DNA from: Agromyces cavernae | GTDB lineage: Bacteria; Actinomycetota; Actinomycetes; Actinomycetales; Microbacteriaceae | DNA: 64,000 bases | Direction of reading: 5' to 3' | Assembly: GCF_021044935.1 (NCBI RefSeq) | Contig: NZ_JAJNMP010000002.1 | Coordinates: forward strand, 744,001-808,000 | Program-made: the position numbers and the translations under genes | Notes under the pieces: generated by a model | The model's database searches: none | Told to the model about the DNA's origin: nothing | Seen by the model: only the letters and a program-made list of their open reading frames with translations | In this document: positions 49,854 to 58,679 of the stretch, piece by piece | How the letters are laid out: each line of letters starts with the position of its first letter | Numbering within the stretch: the first letter of the stretch is position 1

Positions 49854-52100
49854 CTATGACCAGTGCGACGAGCGCCCGCGTTCCGTGTCACGCACTGCAG
49901 CGAGGTGCTCGAGCAGGATCGCGACGTCCTCGGGGCTCCGCAACCGGTAGGCCGCGACCGACTTGCCCTGCCCGACCTTGACGCCCACGTCATCGCTCTC
50001 GAGGGCGGCGAACGCGTCTTCGTCGGTGACGTCGTCGCCCACGTAGATCACTGCGCTCGCACCCGCGTGCTGACGCAGCCGCGTGAGCGCCTCGCCCTTG
50101 TCGGTCGAGCGGACCGCGAACTCGAGCACGCCCTTGCCGGTACGCACCGACAGGTCGGAGACCTCGCGCTCGATGCGTTCGCGGGCGATGCGCTGCAGCT
50201 CGGTCGCCTCCGGCGCGAGGACCTTGCGGGTGTGCAGGGCGCGGCCGGCCGGCTTGTGCTCGACCCATGCCCCGTCGGCTCCTGATGCCACCTCGTCGAG
50301 GATGCGCGTGAGGCGCTCGAGCGCATCGAGCTCGCCGTTGCGCAGGTCGATCGTGACGACTCCTCCGTCGAGCTGCAGTTCGACGCCGTGCGACCCGCTG
50401 AGCAGGGCGCCCGCCGGCGGGTCGGCGACCTCGCGCAGGCTCGCGAGGGCCCTGCCCGAGACGATCGCCACGCGCGTGTCGTCGGTCGCGGCGAGTCGCT
50501 CGATCGCGGCGCGAGCACGCTTGGTCGCTCGCGCGTCTTCGGGTCGGTCGACGAGCGGCGCGAGCGTTCCATCGAAGTCGAGCGCGACGAGCAGCCGCTC
50601 GGTCGACGCGATGCCGGTGACGGCGCTCTCGAGCACGTCGGGGACCCCCGGTGCGATGATCCCGGCGCCCGTGAGCGTCTTCAGGAAGGTCGCCGACCAC
50701 CTGGCGACGTCGTTGTCGCTCACGCGCCTGCGAAGCGCGCGCATGCGCCGCGTGCGTTCGCGCTGGGGCATCTCGACGGCCTCGACGATCGCGTCCTTGA
50801 GTCCTTCGATGTCATGGGGGTTCACGAGGACGGCCTGCCGCAGTTCATCGGACGCGCCGGCGAACTCGCTGAGCACGAGCACGCCGTCTTGATCGAACCG
50901 GCACGCGACGTACTCCTTCGCGACGAGGTTCATGCCGTCGCGAAGGGCGGTGACGAGCATGACGTCGGCGGCGAGGTAGAGCGCCACCATCTCTTCGCGC
51001 GGGTAGCCGTGATGCAGGTATGCGATCGCCTGGTGCCCGAGCGTGGAGAAGTCGCCGTTGAGCCGACCGACCATGAGTTCGATCTCGTCGCGGAGCTGCC
51101 GGTAGGTCTCGACACGCTCGCGCGAGGGGCTCGCGACCTGCACGAGCGTGGCCCGTTCGACCGAGAGCCGGTCGTCGCGCAGCAGCTCGCCGAACGCCTT
51201 GAGACGGTGCCGGATGCCCTTCGTGTAGTCGAGCCGGTCGACGCCGAGCATGATGATCTCGGGGTCGCCGAGGCTCGCGCGGATCTCGCGCGCCCGCGCC
51301 TGCACCGCGGGTCTGCGGGCGATCTCCTCGAATCCGGCCGCGTCGATCGAGATCGGGAAGTGACGGGCGACGACGCGTCGCACCTCGCTGTCGTCGGTCG
51401 GCACCTCGATGAGCGTGCCGCGCGTCGTGTACCCGAAGAGCCGTCGCACCGCGCGGGAGAAGTTGCCGGCATCGGCCGCACGCTGGAACCCGATGACGTC
51501 GGCACCGAGCAGTCCGCTGAGCACCTGCCGACGCCAGGGCAGCTGGGAGTAGATGCCGTATGCCGGGAAGGGAATGTGGTTGAAGAAGCCGATGACGAGG
51601 TCGGGCCGGCTCTCGCGCAGCATCTTCGGTACGAGCTGCAACTGGTAGTCCTGCACCCAGACGACCGCACCCGGCGAAGCCGCTCGCGCAGCCGCCTCGG
51701 CGAACCGCCGGTTGACGCGCACGTACGCGTCCCACCATTCCCGGTGGAACGACGGCGGGGCGATCACGTCATGGTAGAGCGGCCACAGCGTGTCGTTCGA
51801 GAAGCCCTCGTAGTACTCCTCGAGCTCCTGCGCGGCAAGCGGCACGGGGATGATCGAGATCCCGTCGTGCTCGAACGGGTCGAACTCGCGGTCGGCGACG
51901 CCGGTCCAGCCGATCCAGGCGCCGTCGGCGGCGCGCATGACGGGTTCGAGCGCCGTGACGAGCCCGCCGGGCGAGCTCCGCCAGAGCGTCTCGCCGTCGG
52001 GACCCTCCTGGTAGTCGACCGGGAGCCGGTTCGAGACCACGATCATGTCGTAGGCGCCGTCGACGTAGAGGTCGTCGCCTGTCGGCTCGGCAGCGTTCAT
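49854..52100 (-). CDS. otsAB: Bifunctional trehalose-6-phosphate synthase/phosphatase
   Basis: Fusion of OtsA (residues about 15-480) and OtsB (about 505-748), making trehalose from UDP- or GDP/ADP-glucose and glucose-6-phosphate. OtsA part: VVSNRLPVDY, VWVQDYQLQLVPKML, NHIPFPAYGIY, GVDRLDYTKGIRHRL and ALRDGMNLVAKEYVA. OtsB is a HAD phosphatase: DFDGTLAPLVDRPEDA with the nucleophile Asp, VSGR, a catalytic lysine region RSTDKGEAL and GDDVTDEDAF. Most bacteria encode these as two proteins; the fusion resembles the yeast/plant and some actinobacterial arrangement. Trehalose is an osmotic and cell-wall (mycolate-independent) protectant here. The gene ends nine bases before ilvD. Confidence 0.95.
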   Translation of the reverse strand: MNAAEPTGDDLYVDGAYDMIVVSNRLPVDYQEGPDGETLWRSSPGGLVTALEPVMRAADGAWIGWTGVADREFDPFEHDGISIIPVPLAAQELEEYYEGFSNDTLWPLYHDVIAPPSFHREWWDAYVRVNRRFAEAAARAASPGAVVWVQDYQLQLVPKMLRESRPDLVIGFFNHIPFPAYGIYSQLPWRRQVLSGLLGADVIGFQRAADAGNFSRAVRRLFGYTTRGTLIEVPTDDSEVRRVVARHFPISIDAAGFEEIARRPAVQARAREIRASLGDPEIIMLGVDRLDYTKGIRHRLKAFGELLRDDRLSVERATLVQVASPSRERVETYRQLRDEIELMVGRLNGDFSTLGHQAIAYLHHGYPREEMVALYLAADVMLVTALRDGMNLVAKEYVACRFDQDGVLVLSEFAGASDELRQAVLVNPHDIEGLKDAIVEAVEMPQRERTRRMRALRRRVSDNDVARWSATFLKTLTGAGIIAPGVPDVLESAVTGIASTERLLVALDFDGTLAPLVDRPEDARATKRARAAIERLAATDDTRVAIVSGRALASLREVADPPAGALLSGSHGVELQLDGGVVTIDLRNGELDALERLTRILDEVASGADGAWVEHKPAGRALHTRKVLAPEATELQRIARERIEREVSDLSVRTGKGVLEFAVRSTDKGEALTRLRQHAGASAVIYVGDDVTDEDAFAALESDDVGVKVGQGKSVAAYRLRSPEDVAILLEHLAAVRDTERGRSSHWS

Positions 52101-52210: not shown

Positions 52211-52531
52211 ATGGAATGGGTGATCCTGATCGCGTCGGGTGTGCTCGAGGCGGTGTGGGCGACGGCGCTCGGGGCATCGAAGAACTTCCGCCGCCTCTGG
52301 CCGACGGTCGTCTTCGTGGTCGCGCTCGTGCTCAGCATGGCCGGGCTCTCGATCGCGATGACCGCGATCCCGGTCGGCACGGCGTACGCCGTCTGGGTCG
52401 GCATCGGCGCCGTGCTCACGGTCGCGTATGCGATGATCTTCGGTCTCGAGAAGGCGAGCATCGTGAAGATCCTGCTCCTGCTCGGGATCATCGGGTGCGT
52501 CATCGGGCTGAAGCTCGTCGGGGAGGCCTGA
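52211..52531 (+). CDS. SMR-family exporter subunit 1 (Gdx-like)
   Basis: 106 residues, four membrane helices, of the small multidrug resistance family. The active-site glutamate is Glu13 in ASGVLEAVWATALG; the C-terminal half has VGTAYAVWVGIGAVLTVAY and ends GIIGCVIGLKLV. The tryptophan after the glutamate favours the Gdx/SugE (guanidinium exporter) branch over EmrE. It is followed one base later by a second SMR gene, so the pair probably makes an obligate heterodimer as in YkkCD-type systems. I found no guanidine riboswitch pattern in the 110-base leader. Confidence 0.9.
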   Translation: MEWVILIASGVLEAVWATALGASKNFRRLWPTVVFVVALVLSMAGLSIAMTAIPVGTAYAVWVGIGAVLTVAYAMIFGLEKASIVKILLLLGIIGCVIGLKLVGEA

Positions 52532-52532
52532 G

Positions 52533-52913
52533 ATGTACTGGCCGATCCTCATTCTGAGCGCGGAGCTCGAGGCGGTCTGGGCGACCGCGCTCGGGTACTC
52601 CGACGGATTCTCGGTGTTCGTGCCGACGCTCGTGTTCTTCGTCGCGCTGGCCGGCAGCATGGCGGGCCTCGCCTACGCGATGCGCGGCATCCCGCTCGGC
52701 ACCGCGTACGCCATCTGGACGGGGCTCGGTGCGGCGCTCACGGTGACCTACGCGATCGTGTTCGGCGGCGAGTCGGCGAGCGTCGCGAAGGTGCTCTTCC
52801 TCGCGGGCATCATCGGCTGCGTCGTCGGCCTGAAGCTCGTGCACTCGCACGAGGAGACGGTCGCCGCCGAGGTCGGCGCGATGCCGCCGCCCGACGAGCC
52901 GCCGGGCGCCTGA
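52533..52913 (+). CDS. SMR-family exporter subunit 2 (Gdx-like)
   Basis: 126 residues, four membrane helices plus a 20-residue hydrophilic tail. Glu11 in LSAELEAVWATALG is the proton/cation site; GTAYAIWTGLGAALTVTYA and GIIGCVVGLKLV mirror the partner. Starts one base after the first SMR gene (TGAGATG). The unequal lengths and tandem genes fit two oppositely oriented subunits of one exporter for guanidinium or quaternary ammonium compounds; the specific substrate is inferred. Confidence 0.9.
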   Translation: MYWPILILSAELEAVWATALGYSDGFSVFVPTLVFFVALAGSMAGLAYAMRGIPLGTAYAIWTGLGAALTVTYAIVFGGESASVAKVLFLAGIIGCVVGLKLVHSHEETVAAEVGAMPPPDEPPGA

Positions 52914-52954: not shown

Positions 52955-55114
52955 TCAGCCGAGCGCGGCCGCCGCGAATCCGATCGAGCGGATACCGCGA
53001 CGGCGGCCCACGACGATCGTCGTGCCGACGACGCCGATCAGTCCGAAGAGCGCGATCACGCCCGAGGCGGCGGCGACCGCTCCCCCGGCGGCACCCGCGA
53101 CGATCAGCTGCATGCCCTGCACCGCCCACGTGAGCGGCAGGAACGGGCTGATCACCTGGAACGGACCGCTCAGGATCTCGACCGGGTAGAGCCCGCCCGA
53201 GGCCGCCAACTGCAAGGCCACGAGCACGAGCGAGACGAGCAGTCCCGCCCGACCGAGCCAGACGGTGAGGAAGGCGTGCAGGGCCGTGAACGCGAGCGCG
53301 AGCAGCGCGGCGAAGGCGAGGGTCTGCGGCAGCAGGCTCCAGTCGACGCCGAGCGCACCGTGGAGCAGCAGGACGACGGCGACCGCCTGGGCGAGCGCGA
53401 GCAGCCCGGCGCGGGCGAGCGCGCGCCACACGAGTCCTGCCGTCGACGCGGTGCTGCGAAGCGCCTCGCGGCCGAACGGCCGGAACACGAGGAACAGCGC
53501 CATGGCACCGAGCCACAGGCCGATCGGCACGAACAGCATGCCGATGACCTCACCCGTCGACTCGATCTCGTGATCGCGTGTCGCGTCGACCGTGACCGGT
53601 TCGGCGACGACCTCGGCGGTCGTCGCCGCGTCGATGTCGGTGAGGGCGCTCGCCTCTTCGGCACCCGATGCGAGCCCCTCGGCCAGCGTGTCGGCACCGT
53701 CGGCGAGGCGGGTCGCGCCGGTCGCAGCATCGGAGGTGCCCGTGTGCAGCGAGCCGAGCCCGCCGGCGAGTTCGCCGACGCCTGACGCGAGTCCGTCTGC
53801 GCCGGAGCGCAGTCCGTCGGAACCCGACGAGAGCTGCGCGGCGCCGCCGGCGAGTTCGCCGATCCCGCCCTGCAGTCCGTCGATGCCCGCGCCGGTCTGC
53901 GCGACGAGGGTGTCGCCGCCCTGAGCAAGGCTCTCGAGCCCGGCCCCGGTCTCGGCGGCGAGCGCATCGCCGCCGGCGGCCAGCTGCTCGAACGCGGTCC
54001 GATTGCCCGCGGTGAGCTCGTCGGCGCCGTCGGCGAGCGCGCGCACCTGCGCGGCGTACTTGGCGACCTCCTGCTGCGCCGCGGCCCCGGTCGGGTCTGC
54101 GGCCACCAGCTGCGGAATGGAGGCGGCGAGCGTGTCGCCTCCTGCGGCGAGGAGGTCGGCTCCCTCCGCGTACGCCTCGGTGCCCGCGGTGAGAGCCGCG
54201 CCCGTGCCGCGCACGCCGTCGTCGACGTACTGCTGGATGCCGCCGCTCACGCCCGCGCCGGTCTGACGCACACCCGTCACGTACTGTGACATGCCGTCGG
54301 TGATGCCGTCGAGCCCACCGGCCTGCTGCGACAGGGTCGCCACGCCGCCGGAAATGCCGTCGACCCCGTTCGTGTATTGTGCGACGCCGTCCGCGTACTG
54401 CGCGGCCCCGTTCGCGGCATCCGTCGCCCCGGACGCGGCCGAACCGACCCCGTCGGAGAGCGTGCCGAGTCCGCCCGCGAGCGAGTCGACGCCCGACGAC
54501 AGCTGGGTCGCGCCGTCGGCGGCGTCGCCGAGTGCGCCGCCCATGGTGGCGAGGTTCTCGTAGAACCCCTCGAGGTATTGGGTCGTGAGCTCCCGGCCGA
54601 AGGCTGTCGACATCGCATCGCCGACCGATTGCGCGACCGAGCCGGCGAGGTAGCCGTGGGCGTCGTCGGTGCGGATGTCGAGGTTCGCCTGCGTCGGGGC
54701 GTCACCCGAGATCGAGGTCACCGACTCCGAGAAGCCGGCGGGAATGGTGAGCACCGCGTACGCGTCGCCGGAGGCGAGCATGTCGGCTGCCTCGTCGTCG
54801 TTCGAGATGGTCCACGCGAACCCGGCGGTGTCGGGACCGGTGAGCTCGGTGACGAGCTGACGGCCGGCGAGCACGGGCTGCTCGGTGCCGTCGGGCAGCG
54901 TCATCGTGACCATCTCGTCGTTGTTCACGACCACCGCGGGGATCTGCTCGAGGTTGTCGCCCGCGCCGCCGAGGGCGCCCGACATGAGGCCGGCGACCGC
55001 GAGCGGCACGGCGATGACGGCTGCGACGAGCACGCCGTAGCGGGTGCGGCGCTGCGCGGGCGTCGTGCCGAAGAGTCGGGAGAGTCGTGTGCTGGTTGAC
55101 GAACGGAGTCTCAT
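52955..55114 (-). CDS. YhgE/Pip-domain membrane protein
   Basis: 719 residues from the ATG at 55114, which overlaps the MMPL stop (ATGA). One N-terminal membrane helix (about 28-48), a long extracytoplasmic part with many Gly/Ala/Ser repeats of the GVxxLxxGxxxLxxG type (about 200-500; e.g. GVDSLAGGLGTLSDGVGSAA), and five to six C-terminal membrane helices (about 530-710) of ABC-2-permease type. This is the YhgE/Pip (phage infection protein homologue) family, which in actinobacteria accompanies MMPL or ABC-ATPase genes and type VII-like envelope functions. Substrate unknown. The third gene of a TetR-MMPL-YhgE unit. Confidence 0.9.
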   Translation of the reverse strand: MRLRSSTSTRLSRLFGTTPAQRRTRYGVLVAAVIAVPLAVAGLMSGALGGAGDNLEQIPAVVVNNDEMVTMTLPDGTEQPVLAGRQLVTELTGPDTAGFAWTISNDDEAADMLASGDAYAVLTIPAGFSESVTSISGDAPTQANLDIRTDDAHGYLAGSVAQSVGDAMSTAFGRELTTQYLEGFYENLATMGGALGDAADGATQLSSGVDSLAGGLGTLSDGVGSAASGATDAANGAAQYADGVAQYTNGVDGISGGVATLSQQAGGLDGITDGMSQYVTGVRQTGAGVSGGIQQYVDDGVRGTGAALTAGTEAYAEGADLLAAGGDTLAASIPQLVAADPTGAAAQQEVAKYAAQVRALADGADELTAGNRTAFEQLAAGGDALAAETGAGLESLAQGGDTLVAQTGAGIDGLQGGIGELAGGAAQLSSGSDGLRSGADGLASGVGELAGGLGSLHTGTSDAATGATRLADGADTLAEGLASGAEEASALTDIDAATTAEVVAEPVTVDATRDHEIESTGEVIGMLFVPIGLWLGAMALFLVFRPFGREALRSTASTAGLVWRALARAGLLALAQAVAVVLLLHGALGVDWSLLPQTLAFAALLALAFTALHAFLTVWLGRAGLLVSLVLVALQLAASGGLYPVEILSGPFQVISPFLPLTWAVQGMQLIVAGAAGGAVAAASGVIALFGLIGVVGTTIVVGRRRGIRSIGFAAAALG

Positions 55115-58017
55115 CGCAGTGCCTCCAGGTTGGCGTGGACTCGGTCGGGTGCGGAGTCGGGTTCGATGGTTCGGATGCCCCGTGCCGCGAGTTCGCGCGA
55201 GACATCGGGCGGGGTCGCCGCGGCGCCGAGGCCGACGACGAGGGTGACGGTGGCGGGAACGAGTCGGGCCAACGCGTGCCACAGCCCGGAGTCGGCCTCG
55301 CTCGGGTCGTCGTCGAGGTCGATCACGACGACCCTCGGCCGCTCGGCGAGCGCCGCCGCGACGGCGACGACCGCACGCGTCTCGGCGCCGAGCGACGCGA
55401 TCGGCGTCTCGACGCCGAACGGGGGACCGTCGGGCGCGTGTCCGATGGCATCGGCGGCTCGGGTCGCCCACTCGTCGACGAGCGCCGACGACGGACGCAG
55501 GCGATACCAGGGACGGGTCGCGTCGAGCCGTGCGGCGATGAGTTCGCCGACGGTGCCCCCGGTCGGGACATCCGTCGCCCCCTCGGCGATCGCGACGACG
55601 CGCATGACCTCGCCCGCACCGGTCGGCAGCGGCGATCCCTGCACGGCGAGCCTGCCGTCGACGAGCGGGAGCCGGCCCGCAAGCGTCGCCGCGACGACCC
55701 GGCGATCCACGGGTTCGCCGCGCACGACGAGCACACCGCCTGCGGGGACCTCGACCGTCAGCGGTCCGATCGGCCGATCGGCGAGCCCGAACACGGCGTC
55801 GTCGGCGTTGATCGCCGCCGGACGCGCGGCCGCCCACTCCTCTTGTTCGAGGTGGGCACGCAGGCCCTCGCCCTCGATGTCGACGTTCGGCAGCCGGGCC
55901 GCGAGCCACTTCGGCAGCCACCAGGCGGCCTTGCCCGCGAGCACCATCGCCGCCGGCACGAGCGTCATGCGCACGAGGAACGCGTCGAACGCGACGCCGA
56001 TCGCGAGGGCGAACGCGATGGCCTTGATCGCCCCCGAGCCCTCGGGAACGAAGGCGAAGAAGACGAAGAACATGATGAGGGCTGCGGCGGTGACCACGCG
56101 TGCGGCGTGCTGGAAGCCGTGCACGACCGAACCCCGGGGCTCCCGGGTCTTGACGAACTCCTCGCGCATGCCCGACACGAGGAAGACCTCGTAGTCCATC
56201 GCGAGGCCGAAGAGCACCGCGATGAGCAGGATCGGCAGGAAGCTCAGGATGGGGCCGGGCTCGATGTTCAGGAGCTCGGCCGCCCAGCCCCACTGGAACA
56301 CCGCGACGCTCACGCCGATCGCGCCGAACGCCGACAGCAGGAAGCCGAGCGCCGCCTTGATCGGCACGAACACCGAGCGGAACACGAGCAGCAGCAGCAC
56401 CACGGAGAGTCCGACGACGATGAGCGCGAACGGCACGAGGGCGTCGTTCAAGCGGTTCGAGATGTCGATCGAAACGGCGGTGTAGCCGGTCACCGCGATC
56501 GGCGTGCCGAAGTCCTCCTCGATCTCGGGCTGAAGGTCGCGGATGTCCTGCACGATCTGCTTCGTCTCGGGGTCGTTCGGGGCGCTCTCGGGGATCACCT
56601 GGATGATCGCGGTGTCGACCGTTTCATTGGGCAGGCCGTCGCCCACGTACACGACCCCGTCGACCTCGGCGAGTCGTGCGCCGATCGCATCGAGGTCGTC
56701 GAAGATGTCGGTCGTCTGGGTGATGTCGACCGTCACGATGAGCGGGCCGTTGTAGCCGGGCCCGAACCCGTCGGCGATCATGTCGTACGCCTCGCGCTCC
56801 TGGCTGCCCGCTTCGGCGGTCGCGCCGCTCGGCAGGTTCAGGTCGATGCTCGCCGCGGGGATCGCCGCGGTGCCGAGCACGCCGACGACGAGCACGAGGA
56901 ACACGACCGGGGCCTTCAGCACGAGGTCGACCCAGCGGCGACCCATCGTGCGGGTGCCGCCGTCGTCGGCGGCGTTGGCACGCCGGTGGGCGCGGCTGCC
57001 GGGCTTCGGGATCATGCGCCGCCCGAGCAGGCCGAGCAGGGCCGGCAGCAGGGTGACCGCCGCGGCCACCGCGACGAGCACCGCGAAGGCGGCGGCGACG
57101 CCCATGACGCTGAGGAAGGGGATGCCGACGACGAGCAGCCCCAGCAGGGCGATGATGACCGTCAGCCCGGCGAACACCACGGCGCCGCCCGCGGTCGCGA
57201 CCGACTCGGCCGCACTGTCTTCGGGTTCCTGCCCGCGGGCCAGCTGGGTCCGATGGCGCGACAGGATGAAGAGGGCGTAGTCGATGCCGACCGCGAGGCC
57301 GATCATGACCGCGAGCATCGGCGCGGTCGACGACACGGGTGCGAACGCCGCCACGATCGAGATCCCGCCGAACGCGATGCCCACGCCCACGAGTGCCGTG
57401 AGCAGCGGCATCCCGGCCGCGAGCAGCGACCCGAACGCGATGATGAGCACGACGCCCGCGAACACGACGCCGAGCACCTCGGTGACCGTGAGCCCGAAGC
57501 TCGTGTCCTGGAAGACCTCGCCGCCGAACGCGACGCGCAGTCCCGCGTCTTCACCGACGCCGCCCGTGGCGACGACCGCGTCCTTCGACTCGACCGTGAC
57601 CTCGGTCGTCGGCCCGTCGAACTGCACCTGGATGTAGGCGGTGCGGCCGTCGTCGGAGACCTGCTTGCCCGCGAACTCGTCGAACGGCCCGAGCACGCTC
57701 ACCACGCCGTCGACGTCTTCGAGCGCCGACTCCATGTCCGTGATCGCGTCACGGTACGGTACATCGTCGACGGATGACCCGTCGGGGGCCTCGACGACCG
57801 CTTTCGCCGACGCGCCCGCGGTCTGCGGGAAGACCGCGGCGAGCTGGTCGATCGCGGTCTGCGACTCGGTGCCGGGAATGGCGAACGAGTCTTTCAACTG
57901 ACCGCCGAGGCCGAGGCCGACGCCCAGGACGGCGCCGAGGGCGAGCACCCACGCGACGATGACGAGCCACGCACGCCGATAGGCGAAGCGTCCGATGCGG
58001 TGAAGAAGGAGGGCCAC
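55111..58017 (-). CDS. MMPL/RND transporter with degenerate ABC-ATPase-like tail
   Basis: 968 residues from GTG 58017. Residues 1-720 are a standard MMPL-family RND exporter: 12 membrane segments in two halves with two outer loops, including LAVMIGLAVGIDYALFILSRHR-like (split: VMIGLAVGIDYALF, about 240-260) and the second-half FGLAMDYEVFLVSGMREE. Residues about 722-968 are extra and look like a decayed ABC ATPase: GPLTVEVPAGGVLVVRGEP ends in GEPVDRRV instead of Walker A, IASLGAETR replaces LSGG, and ERPRVVVIDLDDD stands at the Walker B place. So the tail probably binds or scaffolds rather than hydrolyses ATP. Works with the YhgE/Pip protein behind it; controlled by the TetR gene in front. Lipid or drug export is the family role. 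Confidence 0.9.
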   Translation of the reverse strand: MALLLHRIGRFAYRRAWLVIVAWVLALGAVLGVGLGLGGQLKDSFAIPGTESQTAIDQLAAVFPQTAGASAKAVVEAPDGSSVDDVPYRDAITDMESALEDVDGVVSVLGPFDEFAGKQVSDDGRTAYIQVQFDGPTTEVTVESKDAVVATGGVGEDAGLRVAFGGEVFQDTSFGLTVTEVLGVVFAGVVLIIAFGSLLAAGMPLLTALVGVGIAFGGISIVAAFAPVSSTAPMLAVMIGLAVGIDYALFILSRHRTQLARGQEPEDSAAESVATAGGAVVFAGLTVIIALLGLLVVGIPFLSVMGVAAAFAVLVAVAAAVTLLPALLGLLGRRMIPKPGSRAHRRANAADDGGTRTMGRRWVDLVLKAPVVFLVLVVGVLGTAAIPAASIDLNLPSGATAEAGSQEREAYDMIADGFGPGYNGPLIVTVDITQTTDIFDDLDAIGARLAEVDGVVYVGDGLPNETVDTAIIQVIPESAPNDPETKQIVQDIRDLQPEIEEDFGTPIAVTGYTAVSIDISNRLNDALVPFALIVVGLSVVLLLLVFRSVFVPIKAALGFLLSAFGAIGVSVAVFQWGWAAELLNIEPGPILSFLPILLIAVLFGLAMDYEVFLVSGMREEFVKTREPRGSVVHGFQHAARVVTAAALIMFFVFFAFVPEGSGAIKAIAFALAIGVAFDAFLVRMTLVPAAMVLAGKAAWWLPKWLAARLPNVDIEGEGLRAHLEQEEWAAARPAAINADDAVFGLADRPIGPLTVEVPAGGVLVVRGEPVDRRVVAATLAGRLPLVDGRLAVQGSPLPTGAGEVMRVVAIAEGATDVPTGGTVGELIAARLDATRPWYRLRPSSALVDEWATRAADAIGHAPDGPPFGVETPIASLGAETRAVVAVAAALAERPRVVVIDLDDDPSEADSGLWHALARLVPATVTLVVGLGAAATPPDVSRELAARGIRTIEPDSAPDRVHANLEALR

Positions 58018-58025
58018 GGTCTCTC

Positions 58026-58631
58026 TCAGTCGGTGGTGGTCGGGCGGGGGCGGTCGCGGGGCGCGAGCAGTTCGCCGAGCACGACGTGCAGCACGTCGCG
58101 GAGCTCGTCGTCGGCCGGGAGCGCGTCGGCGTCGGCGAACGAGCGGCCGGCCGTCAGGAGGAATGCGGCACCGCCGAGGCCGATGCCGAATCGGACCTGG
58201 TCGACGACGCTCTCGCGCTCGTCGCCGATCGCCTCGGCGAGCCGGCGCACGGCGGCGTTCGCCCGCGCGATGATGGGCAGCTCGGCGAGGCTCGGCCCCT
58301 GGATGAGGAAGACGTGCACCGCCTGCCGGTTCTCGAGGAGCAGGTCGACGACGCGGGCGACGAGCGTGCGCCGTCGGCCGCTGCCACGGCCCGCGATGAA
58401 GTCGTCGAGCACCGCCTCGAACTCCGAGATGGCGGGCTCGATCGCGGCCTCGAGCAGCGCCTCCTTCGATGCGAAGTGGTAGAGCACGCTCGACTTCGAG
58501 TAGCCGGCGTGGTCGGCGATGTGCTGCAGCGAGGTTCCTGCGAAGCCGACCGTCGCGAATTGATCGAGGGCGACCTGCTTGAGTTCGTCGGCCGCACGCA
58601 CGCGCGTCGTCGGTTGGGCATCGGTGGGCAT
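58026..58631 (-). CDS. TetR-family repressor of the MMPL operon
   Basis: 201 residues from the ATG at 58631; an upstream in-frame ATG at 58670 lies inside the operator and is rejected. Helix-turn-helix: QHIADHAGYSKSSVLYHFAS (about residues 40-59). The ligand domain has FLIQGPSLAELPIIARAN. Eight bases before the MMPL GTG, so it is the first gene of the operon. Its own promoter carries two TGACCGATCGGTCA-type palindromes, so it should repress the whole unit. Confidence 0.9.
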   Translation of the reverse strand: MPTDAQPTTRVRAADELKQVALDQFATVGFAGTSLQHIADHAGYSKSSVLYHFASKEALLEAAIEPAISEFEAVLDDFIAGRGSGRRRTLVARVVDLLLENRQAVHVFLIQGPSLAELPIIARANAAVRRLAEAIGDERESVVDQVRFGIGLGGAAFLLTAGRSFADADALPADDELRDVLHVVLGELLAPRDRPRPTTTD

Positions 58632-58646
58632 GTCGTCGACGCTACT

Positions 58647-58679
58647 TGACCGATCGGTCAGATCCTGCACGATCGGTCA
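58647..58679. promoter_or_regulatory. Double TetR operator of the MMPL operon
   Basis: A perfect palindrome TGACCGATCGGTCA (58647-58660) and a weaker copy TGCACGATCGGTCA (58666-58679), 19 bp apart. GACCGATCGGTC is a common TetR half-site combination. The pair lies just before the TetR start, suggesting two dimers side by side. Confidence 0.8.

Follow-up and report, generated by a model that had tools for sequence, protein, structure and literature searches.

An MMPL transporter that carries a dead ABC domain of the YhgE-partner type is encoded in the window, by which we mean the whole analyzed stretch of 64,000 nucleotides of Agromyces cavernae DNA. The gene (55111..58017, minus strand) specifies a protein of 968 residues in which the MMPL core, a member of the RND superfamily, is fused to a C-terminal ABC-like tail, and it is followed by the gene for a YhgE/Pip family protein. 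The tail probably began as an ABC ATPase-like subunit of YhgE, became fused on a single occasion to the MMPL protein encoded upstream, lost its nucleotide site and now docks YhgE. Computation yielded the ABC fold, the loss of the motifs, a single fusion with a defined order of events, a tail under purifying selection that is inherited together with YhgE and covaries with it in rate, and intact proton-relay residues in the pump.

The MMPL core scored 301 bits against Pfam MMPL (cut-off 20.5), and the nearest named relative of the protein, from Agromyces humatus, was 96% identical. Two Asp-Tyr pairs are located at residues 246-247 (57277..57282, minus strand) and 608-609 (56191..56196, minus strand) and presumably act in the proton relay, a role we take from work on MmpL3. 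Both motifs were found in 66 of the 67 fused MMPL proteins, the exception (L052) being cut by the end of its contig. A conserved helix, DIEGE..W (residues 713-728; 55834..55881, minus strand), connects the last MMPL membrane helix to the ABC-like domain. It is helical in the AlphaFold model, and in the alignment of 54 tails the D, E and G of its DIEG were invariant and the W was present in at least 90%. The gene upstream on the same strand (58026..58670, minus strand) encodes a TetR family regulator recognized by Pfam TetR_N, and a similar regulator was present in 79 of the 80 named loci and in 49 of the 67 fused loci. Downstream, the YhgE/Pip protein of 719 residues (52955..55114, minus strand) was identified by TIGR03061 and TIGR03062, and its ATG overlaps the MMPL stop codon (ATGA). 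Convergent to the YhgE gene lies a tandem pair of small multidrug resistance (SMR) genes on the plus strand (52211-52531 and 52533-52913; Pfam Multi_Drug_Res, 76.6 and 70.4 bits), and the ORF at 49854-52100 on the minus strand encodes 748 residues whose translation, on reading, resembles trehalose-6-phosphate synthase joined to its phosphatase. On contig C4 of the same genome (G000), another MMPL gene (about 292518-295361; L002 337-3180) has an ABC-like tail that is shorter. It represents the short-tail type, whose ABC-like domain has no helical/signature part, and a weak YhgE C-terminal match (E 5e-9) is located downstream of it at 296710-297228.

The original prediction, that residues of about 722-968 have the layout of an ABC ATPase, was borne out by profile and by predicted fold; of the span proposed for the tail the start was correct, while the end at 55855 was one base out of frame, the in-frame span being 55111-55854 (residues 722-968). 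When the structure of the tail was predicted and searched against ABC ATPases, the fold of an ABC nucleotide-binding domain (NBD) was matched from end to end. The AlphaFold (AF2) model had a pLDDT of 89.4 and a pTM of 0.87, and Foldseek returned 1071 matches to it at E<=1e-3. Structural alignment gave Z scores of up to 17.6 to ABC nucleotide-binding domains over model residues 26-250, which correspond to residues 732-956 of the protein, and among Foldseek's best chains 997 of the 998 aligned reached a Z of at least 8. A profile built from 54 tails of the family matched 285 distinct PDB sequences at E<=0.01 (best E 3.9e-14); the best 60 of these were all ABC proteins, the top ones aligned along most of the domain. 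By contrast, searches with single sequences were nearly blind to the tail, so the ABC assignment needs relatives or structure. The window's tail alone had no ABC match in Pfam or NCBIfam, and in phmmer against the PDB it met ABC proteins at E 0.015 or worse. Single tails matched Pfam ABC_tran in 10 of 54 cases at E<=1 (best 3.3e-4) and the NCBIfam cobalt ABC ATPase model in 19 of 54 (best 9e-9), and the Pfam ABC_tran cut-off was passed by all the other domains tested, six stand-alone and two outgroup-fused. By profile and predicted structure, residues of about 732-956 (55150..55824, minus strand) are an ABC ATPase domain without catalytic motifs.

It had also been claimed that the catalytic motifs are replaced by GEPVDRRV, ASLGAETR and VVVIDLDDD, and the profile alignment placed all three in the appropriate slots. 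The Walker A slot holds GEPVDRR (residues 767-773; 55699..55719, minus strand), which is one residue short and has no GK[ST]; the signature slot (55366..55401, minus strand) reads IASLGAETRAVV instead of LSGGQ (IASLGAETR at residue 873 ff.); and Walker B is VVVIDLDDD (residues 896-904; 55306..55332, minus strand). The Walker B Asp remains, while the catalytic Glu and the His of the H-loop are gone. Motifs were counted over 108 rows comprising 51 long, 12 short and 5 outgroup-fused tails and 40 stand-alone domains, L090 being excluded as it fell below the profile cut. Neither LSGG in the signature slot nor His in the H-loop slot occurred in any of the 108 rows, fused or not, and the short tails had no signature part at all. 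None of the 51 long tails of the window's family, window included, had G[KR][ST], and 44 had RR where the loop ends; likewise no P-loop pattern was found in the tails of the 80 named loci. The five long fused tails from outside the window's family all had GKT, and all 40 stand-alone YhgE-partner rows kept G[KR][ST], with Lys in 11 and Arg in 29. As judged from its motifs, the view of the tail as a catalytically dead NBD was largely right: the motifs are lost, but the decay is family-wide and not particular to the window's gene. The loss of the signature, moreover, has to be read against the 40 stand-alone rows, in all of which LSGGQ was already absent, so that it was probably lost before the fusion.

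These counts derive from several sets of loci. When 150 genomes of the same family were searched, 75 gave matches. From these matches 60 loci were pulled, and the tail was fused to MMPL in 59, which is not a frequency because the loci were selected mainly by long open frames. A TIGR03062 scan of 100 family genomes provided 20 YhgE loci, mostly the top-scoring rows. A profile of both kinds, fused and stand-alone, was then run on 248 genomes from the order and 296 from the class, where the group appeared at about E 1e-29 or better, above the short-type fused tails and ordinary ABC ATPases. From the best of these rows 40 loci, spread over families, were picked by hand (32 stand-alone and 8 fused), leaving aside rows at about E 1e-26 to 1e-24 (e.g. 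G303, G275 and G357). Among the 80 named loci, the MMPL frame was broken in L309, a metagenome bin, and L261 was cut by the end of its contig.

The idea that ABC ATPases work with YhgE/Pip proteins fits the gene order of the tail's relatives, which form a clade encoded directly upstream of YhgE. All 32 stand-alone loci pulled by the ATPase profile had YhgE directly downstream, as did seven of the eight fused loci of the order and class set, the eighth (L239) ending with its contig. Considering all fused loci, the YhgE match began no more than 68 bases past the MMPL stop in 66 of 67 (the remaining one again being L239), a gap too small to hold an ATPase gene. A separate intact ATPase at this position, for which the relatives were checked, was accordingly absent in these 66 loci. 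One additional ABC-like open frame near a fused locus was noted in L075, on the opposite strand and with a weak match (E 2e-7). In the 80 named loci, the tail was in the MMPL frame in 78 and YhgE was present in 76, the other four ending at a contig end within 309 bases. The 20 YhgE loci presented a more varied picture, with a strong stand-alone ATPase directly upstream in six, a weak match in five and none in nine (one cut by its contig). YhgE thus need not require an NBD, since YhgE genes without a detected upstream ATPase exist. The five weak matches (E 2e-11 to 2e-7; L128, L130, L135, L138 and L142) are perhaps still more decayed partners.

The stand-alone YhgE-partner ABC-like ATPases constitute a widespread clade in Actinomycetia (L200-L236, comprising 32 loci, as well as L080, L126, L127, L129, L131, L132 and L140), in which Arg takes the place of the P-loop Lys in 29 of 40 rows and LSGG is found in none of the 40. 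A cluster of separate MMPL, ATPase and YhgE genes, as might have preceded the fusion, was looked for and rejected: no MMPL was detected at E<=1e-8 in about 2-4 kb upstream of 39 stand-alone loci.

That the ATPase had been fused to MMPL was supported by the phylogeny, in which a single fusion clade is nested in the YhgE-partner ABC-like ATPases. The maximum-likelihood tree of the tails was calculated from a thinned set of 71 rows with the P-loop columns removed and was rooted on three ordinary ABC ATPases. The MMPL-fused tails formed one clade (ultrafast bootstrap 99, SH-aLRT 95) among the stand-alone domains, where some of the deeper forks were weak. Within the fused clade the P-loop-intact tails of other families branched first, followed by the short and window types (100/94). 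The window's type of tail was one clade (100/96), while the short tails were not, with L238 placed beside the long tails (98/90). This 71-row tree supersedes a preliminary quick one in which four short-tail rows had been wrongly cut and which had the P-loop-intact fused tails beside the stand-alone domains. A midpoint-rooted tree of 55 YhgE rows, calculated by a quick method, progressed from the YhgE proteins of stand-alone partners to those of P-loop-intact fusions and on to the short and long types. Its nesting matched that of the tail tree, although the branch joining all fused rows was supported at 80 only. Because the earliest fused branch has an intact P-loop, fusion preceded P-loop loss, and the order obtained computationally from the sequences is that of a YhgE partner without LSGGQ, a single fusion to MMPL and later loss of the P-loop. 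This loss happened more than once after the fusion, as two short rows, both MMPL fusions, still have GKS (L088) and GRS (L087).

YhgE itself has features of an ABC-type membrane protein. It passed the cut-offs of TIGR03061 (108.9 bits) and TIGR03062 (154.8 bits) with a query five residues short at its start, and Pfam ABC2_membrane_3 (PF12698) scored 59.6 bits against a cut-off of 31.6. In the predicted model, residues 516-709 (52988..53569, minus strand) superposed on ABCG2 with a Z of 18.2 and an rmsd of 2.4 over 190 residues, and other ABCG transporters superposed as well; the putative membrane part is therefore described here as ABC-2/ABCG-type. The model as a whole had a pLDDT of 76.5 and a pTM of 0.58 and was low in the coiled coil. 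Foldseek with the whole YhgE model found nothing at E<=1e-3, with ABCH and ABCG matches at E 0.04-0.1, probably because the long coiled coil dominates the model. A published transporter survey had already counted ABC-2 proteins among the homologues of the PIP family (PMC3924187). Given this kinship and the ABCG-like fold, the docking of an NBD-like partner on YhgE is structurally sensible.

The tail is under purifying selection. Its dN/dS was below 1 in 17 of 17 comparisons and ranged from 0.11 to 0.68, with 0.11-0.36 in seven pairs and 0.17-0.68 between the window and ten Agromyces relatives; in two of the Agromyces comparisons (0.66 and 0.68) the constraint was weak. For comparison, the MMPL core had 0.03-0.28 and YhgE 0.08-0.49, and P-loop-dead tails were less constrained than the MMPL core in 16 of 16 comparisons. 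In the sole P-loop-intact pair (L204/L208), a single observation, the tail was more constrained than the MMPL core (0.23 vs 0.28).

For the covariation of evolutionary rates, the window and 71 of the 80 named loci were placed on a fixed tree of 72 loci with 141 branches. Over all branches the partial correlation between tail and YhgE was 0.55 (p 1e-12), compared to 0.27 between the tail and its own MMPL core, 0.27 between tail and TetR and 0.36 between MMPL core and YhgE. On the inner branches the values were 0.60 for tail-YhgE and 0.29 for MMPL core-YhgE, and on the tip branches alone 0.44 and 0.48, respectively. With all other parts fixed, the tail correlated with the C half of YhgE, which contains most of its membrane part, at 0.46 (p 7.5e-9). 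This is close to the yardsticks set by the two halves of YhgE with each other (0.47) and by the halves of the MMPL core (0.43), whereas the corresponding values were 0.10 for the N half of YhgE, 0.10 for the adjacent MMPL half and 0.26 for TetR. With only the N half of the MMPL core and TetR fixed, the tail followed YhgE C at 0.66, YhgE N at 0.51 and the adjacent MMPL half at 0.40. A regional rate effect, conceivable since tail and YhgE are neighbors on the DNA, was rejected, because with all other parts fixed the tail follows the C half of YhgE, which is distant from it, but neither the N half nor the MMPL half next to it. Selection shared by parts that do not touch may also account for the covariation: the TetR control is non-zero (r 0.26-0.27), and on the tips alone MMPL core and YhgE go together as strongly as tail and YhgE.

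Our preferred reading, the docking of YhgE by the tail, has to be weighed against others. The dead domain could instead be a regulatory sensor, whose RR loop binds a nucleotide, an anionic metabolite or a lipid and gates MMPL, with YhgE as a mere operon neighbor. The conservation of RR in 44 of the 51 long tails, the covalent attachment of the tail to MMPL and the constraint on it all agree with such a role, which we nevertheless regard as unlikely: over all branches the rate of the tail tracks YhgE more than the MMPL core, and its stand-alone relatives are encoded directly upstream of YhgE with no MMPL detected in the 2-4 kb upstream at 39 loci. Even less probable is that the tail pairs, as a degenerate NBD, with an intact ABC ATPase encoded elsewhere, and that this heterodimer drives YhgE with ATP. 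Some ABC exporters are known to be heterodimers in which one site is degenerate, and TmrAB and TAP were among the structural matches of the tail. Against this, MMPL and YhgE lie too close together in 66 of 67 fused loci to admit an ATPase gene (the other being cut by its contig), no stand-alone clade member was seen in G000 among the 10 of 211 candidates that were scored, and LSGG was missing from the signature slot in all 108 rows. That the domain is a decaying relic without present function would agree with the loss of all catalytic motifs and with its faster evolution than the MMPL core in the 16 P-loop-dead comparisons, yet the dN/dS of 0.11-0.68 in those comparisons, the retention of the domain in the MMPL frame in 78 of the 80 named loci and its intact predicted fold make free decay very improbable. 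Finally, a chance likeness to ABC proteins, suggested by the lack of a Pfam or NCBIfam ABC match for the window sequence alone, is ruled out for practical purposes by the profile, fold, ABC_tran and tree results.

If the tail docks YhgE, it would bind the ABC-2/ABCG-type membrane part where an NBD would sit, at the coupling helices. The docked tail would tie YhgE to the MMPL pump, and the two would form one machine in which proton flow through MMPL would now supply the work once done by ATP; MMPL may supply energy or receive the substrate. The substrate would probably be an envelope lipid or another hydrophobic compound. The role of coupling scaffold that had been proposed for the tail stays at this level of inference and is backed by the rate covariation and the matching trees. 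A more specific proposal, to which we give tentative credence, is that of an ABC-2 exporter with a swapped engine: its ATPase became fused to a proton-driven RND pump, gave up its ATP chemistry and remained as a mechanical coupling part, and proton flow through MMPL now drives or gates the ABCG-type permease. Such a hybrid RND-ABC machine would be a product of domain fusion, and its intermediate, fused but with the P-loop intact, can still be found in other actinobacteria. A new ligand, and not docking alone, could also be the reason why RR is conserved in the P-loop slot. Regarding the substrate, a hint that is not tied to the window's gene comes from Saccharopolyspora hirsuta, where a YhgE/Pip gene (F1721_04135) and an MMPL gene (F1721_04140) were 3.8-fold and 3.3-fold up, respectively, with cholesterol (PMC9782250, Table 2). 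From their successive locus tags, these two genes appear to be neighbors.

Several known systems share parts of this arrangement. MMPL/HAE2 transporters of the RND superfamily such as MmpL3 have the same Pfam MMPL core, the two Asp-Tyr pairs and a C-terminal extension past the last membrane helix, but in the window protein this extension is an ABC nucleotide-binding domain, which to our knowledge is not the case for mycobacterial MmpL proteins. With the YhgE/Pip family (TIGR03061/TIGR03062; phage infection protein) the window's YhgE shares both halves, a helical domain of heptad repeats and the ABC-2 type membrane part, and differs in that its ABC-like partner domain is part of an RND pump. 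The ABCG/ABC-2 exporters (ABCG2 and ABCG1) resemble the pair in the NBD fold of the tail and in the match of YhgE residues 516-709 to ABCG2; here, however, the NBD belongs to a different protein from the membrane domain, lacks the catalytic motifs and has a pump of the proton-driven class attached. Heterodimeric ABC exporters such as TAP and TmrAB retain NBDs with lost catalytic residues for structure, whereas in the present case no second NBD is encoded alongside and the losses extend to the P-loop, the signature, the Glu and the His. The stand-alone YhgE-partner ABC-like ATPases of Actinomycetia belong to the same clade as the tail, occupy the same place directly upstream of YhgE and have no LSGGQ, but are unfused and keep the P-loop G[KR][ST] (40 of 40 rows). 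Neither a fusion of MMPL with an ABC domain nor an ABC-like ATPase partnering YhgE was found described in a search of the open-access literature (few subscription papers and no preprints).

Transporters of the ABC and RND types are assigned to different classes, the former driven by ATP and the latter by protons. Here a pump of the RND class bears the dead motor domain of the ABC class and is encoded beside that motor's old client. If the two work as a unit, they illustrate a way for an ABC-type permease to switch to another source of energy, and the stages found in extant genomes (stand-alone, fused with the P-loop still intact, fused but dead) would allow the steps to be tested singly. For the YhgE/Pip proteins, which are common and of poorly known function, the finding provides a plausible architecture, that of an ABCG-type permease with an ABC-like partner, as well as a candidate for this partner.
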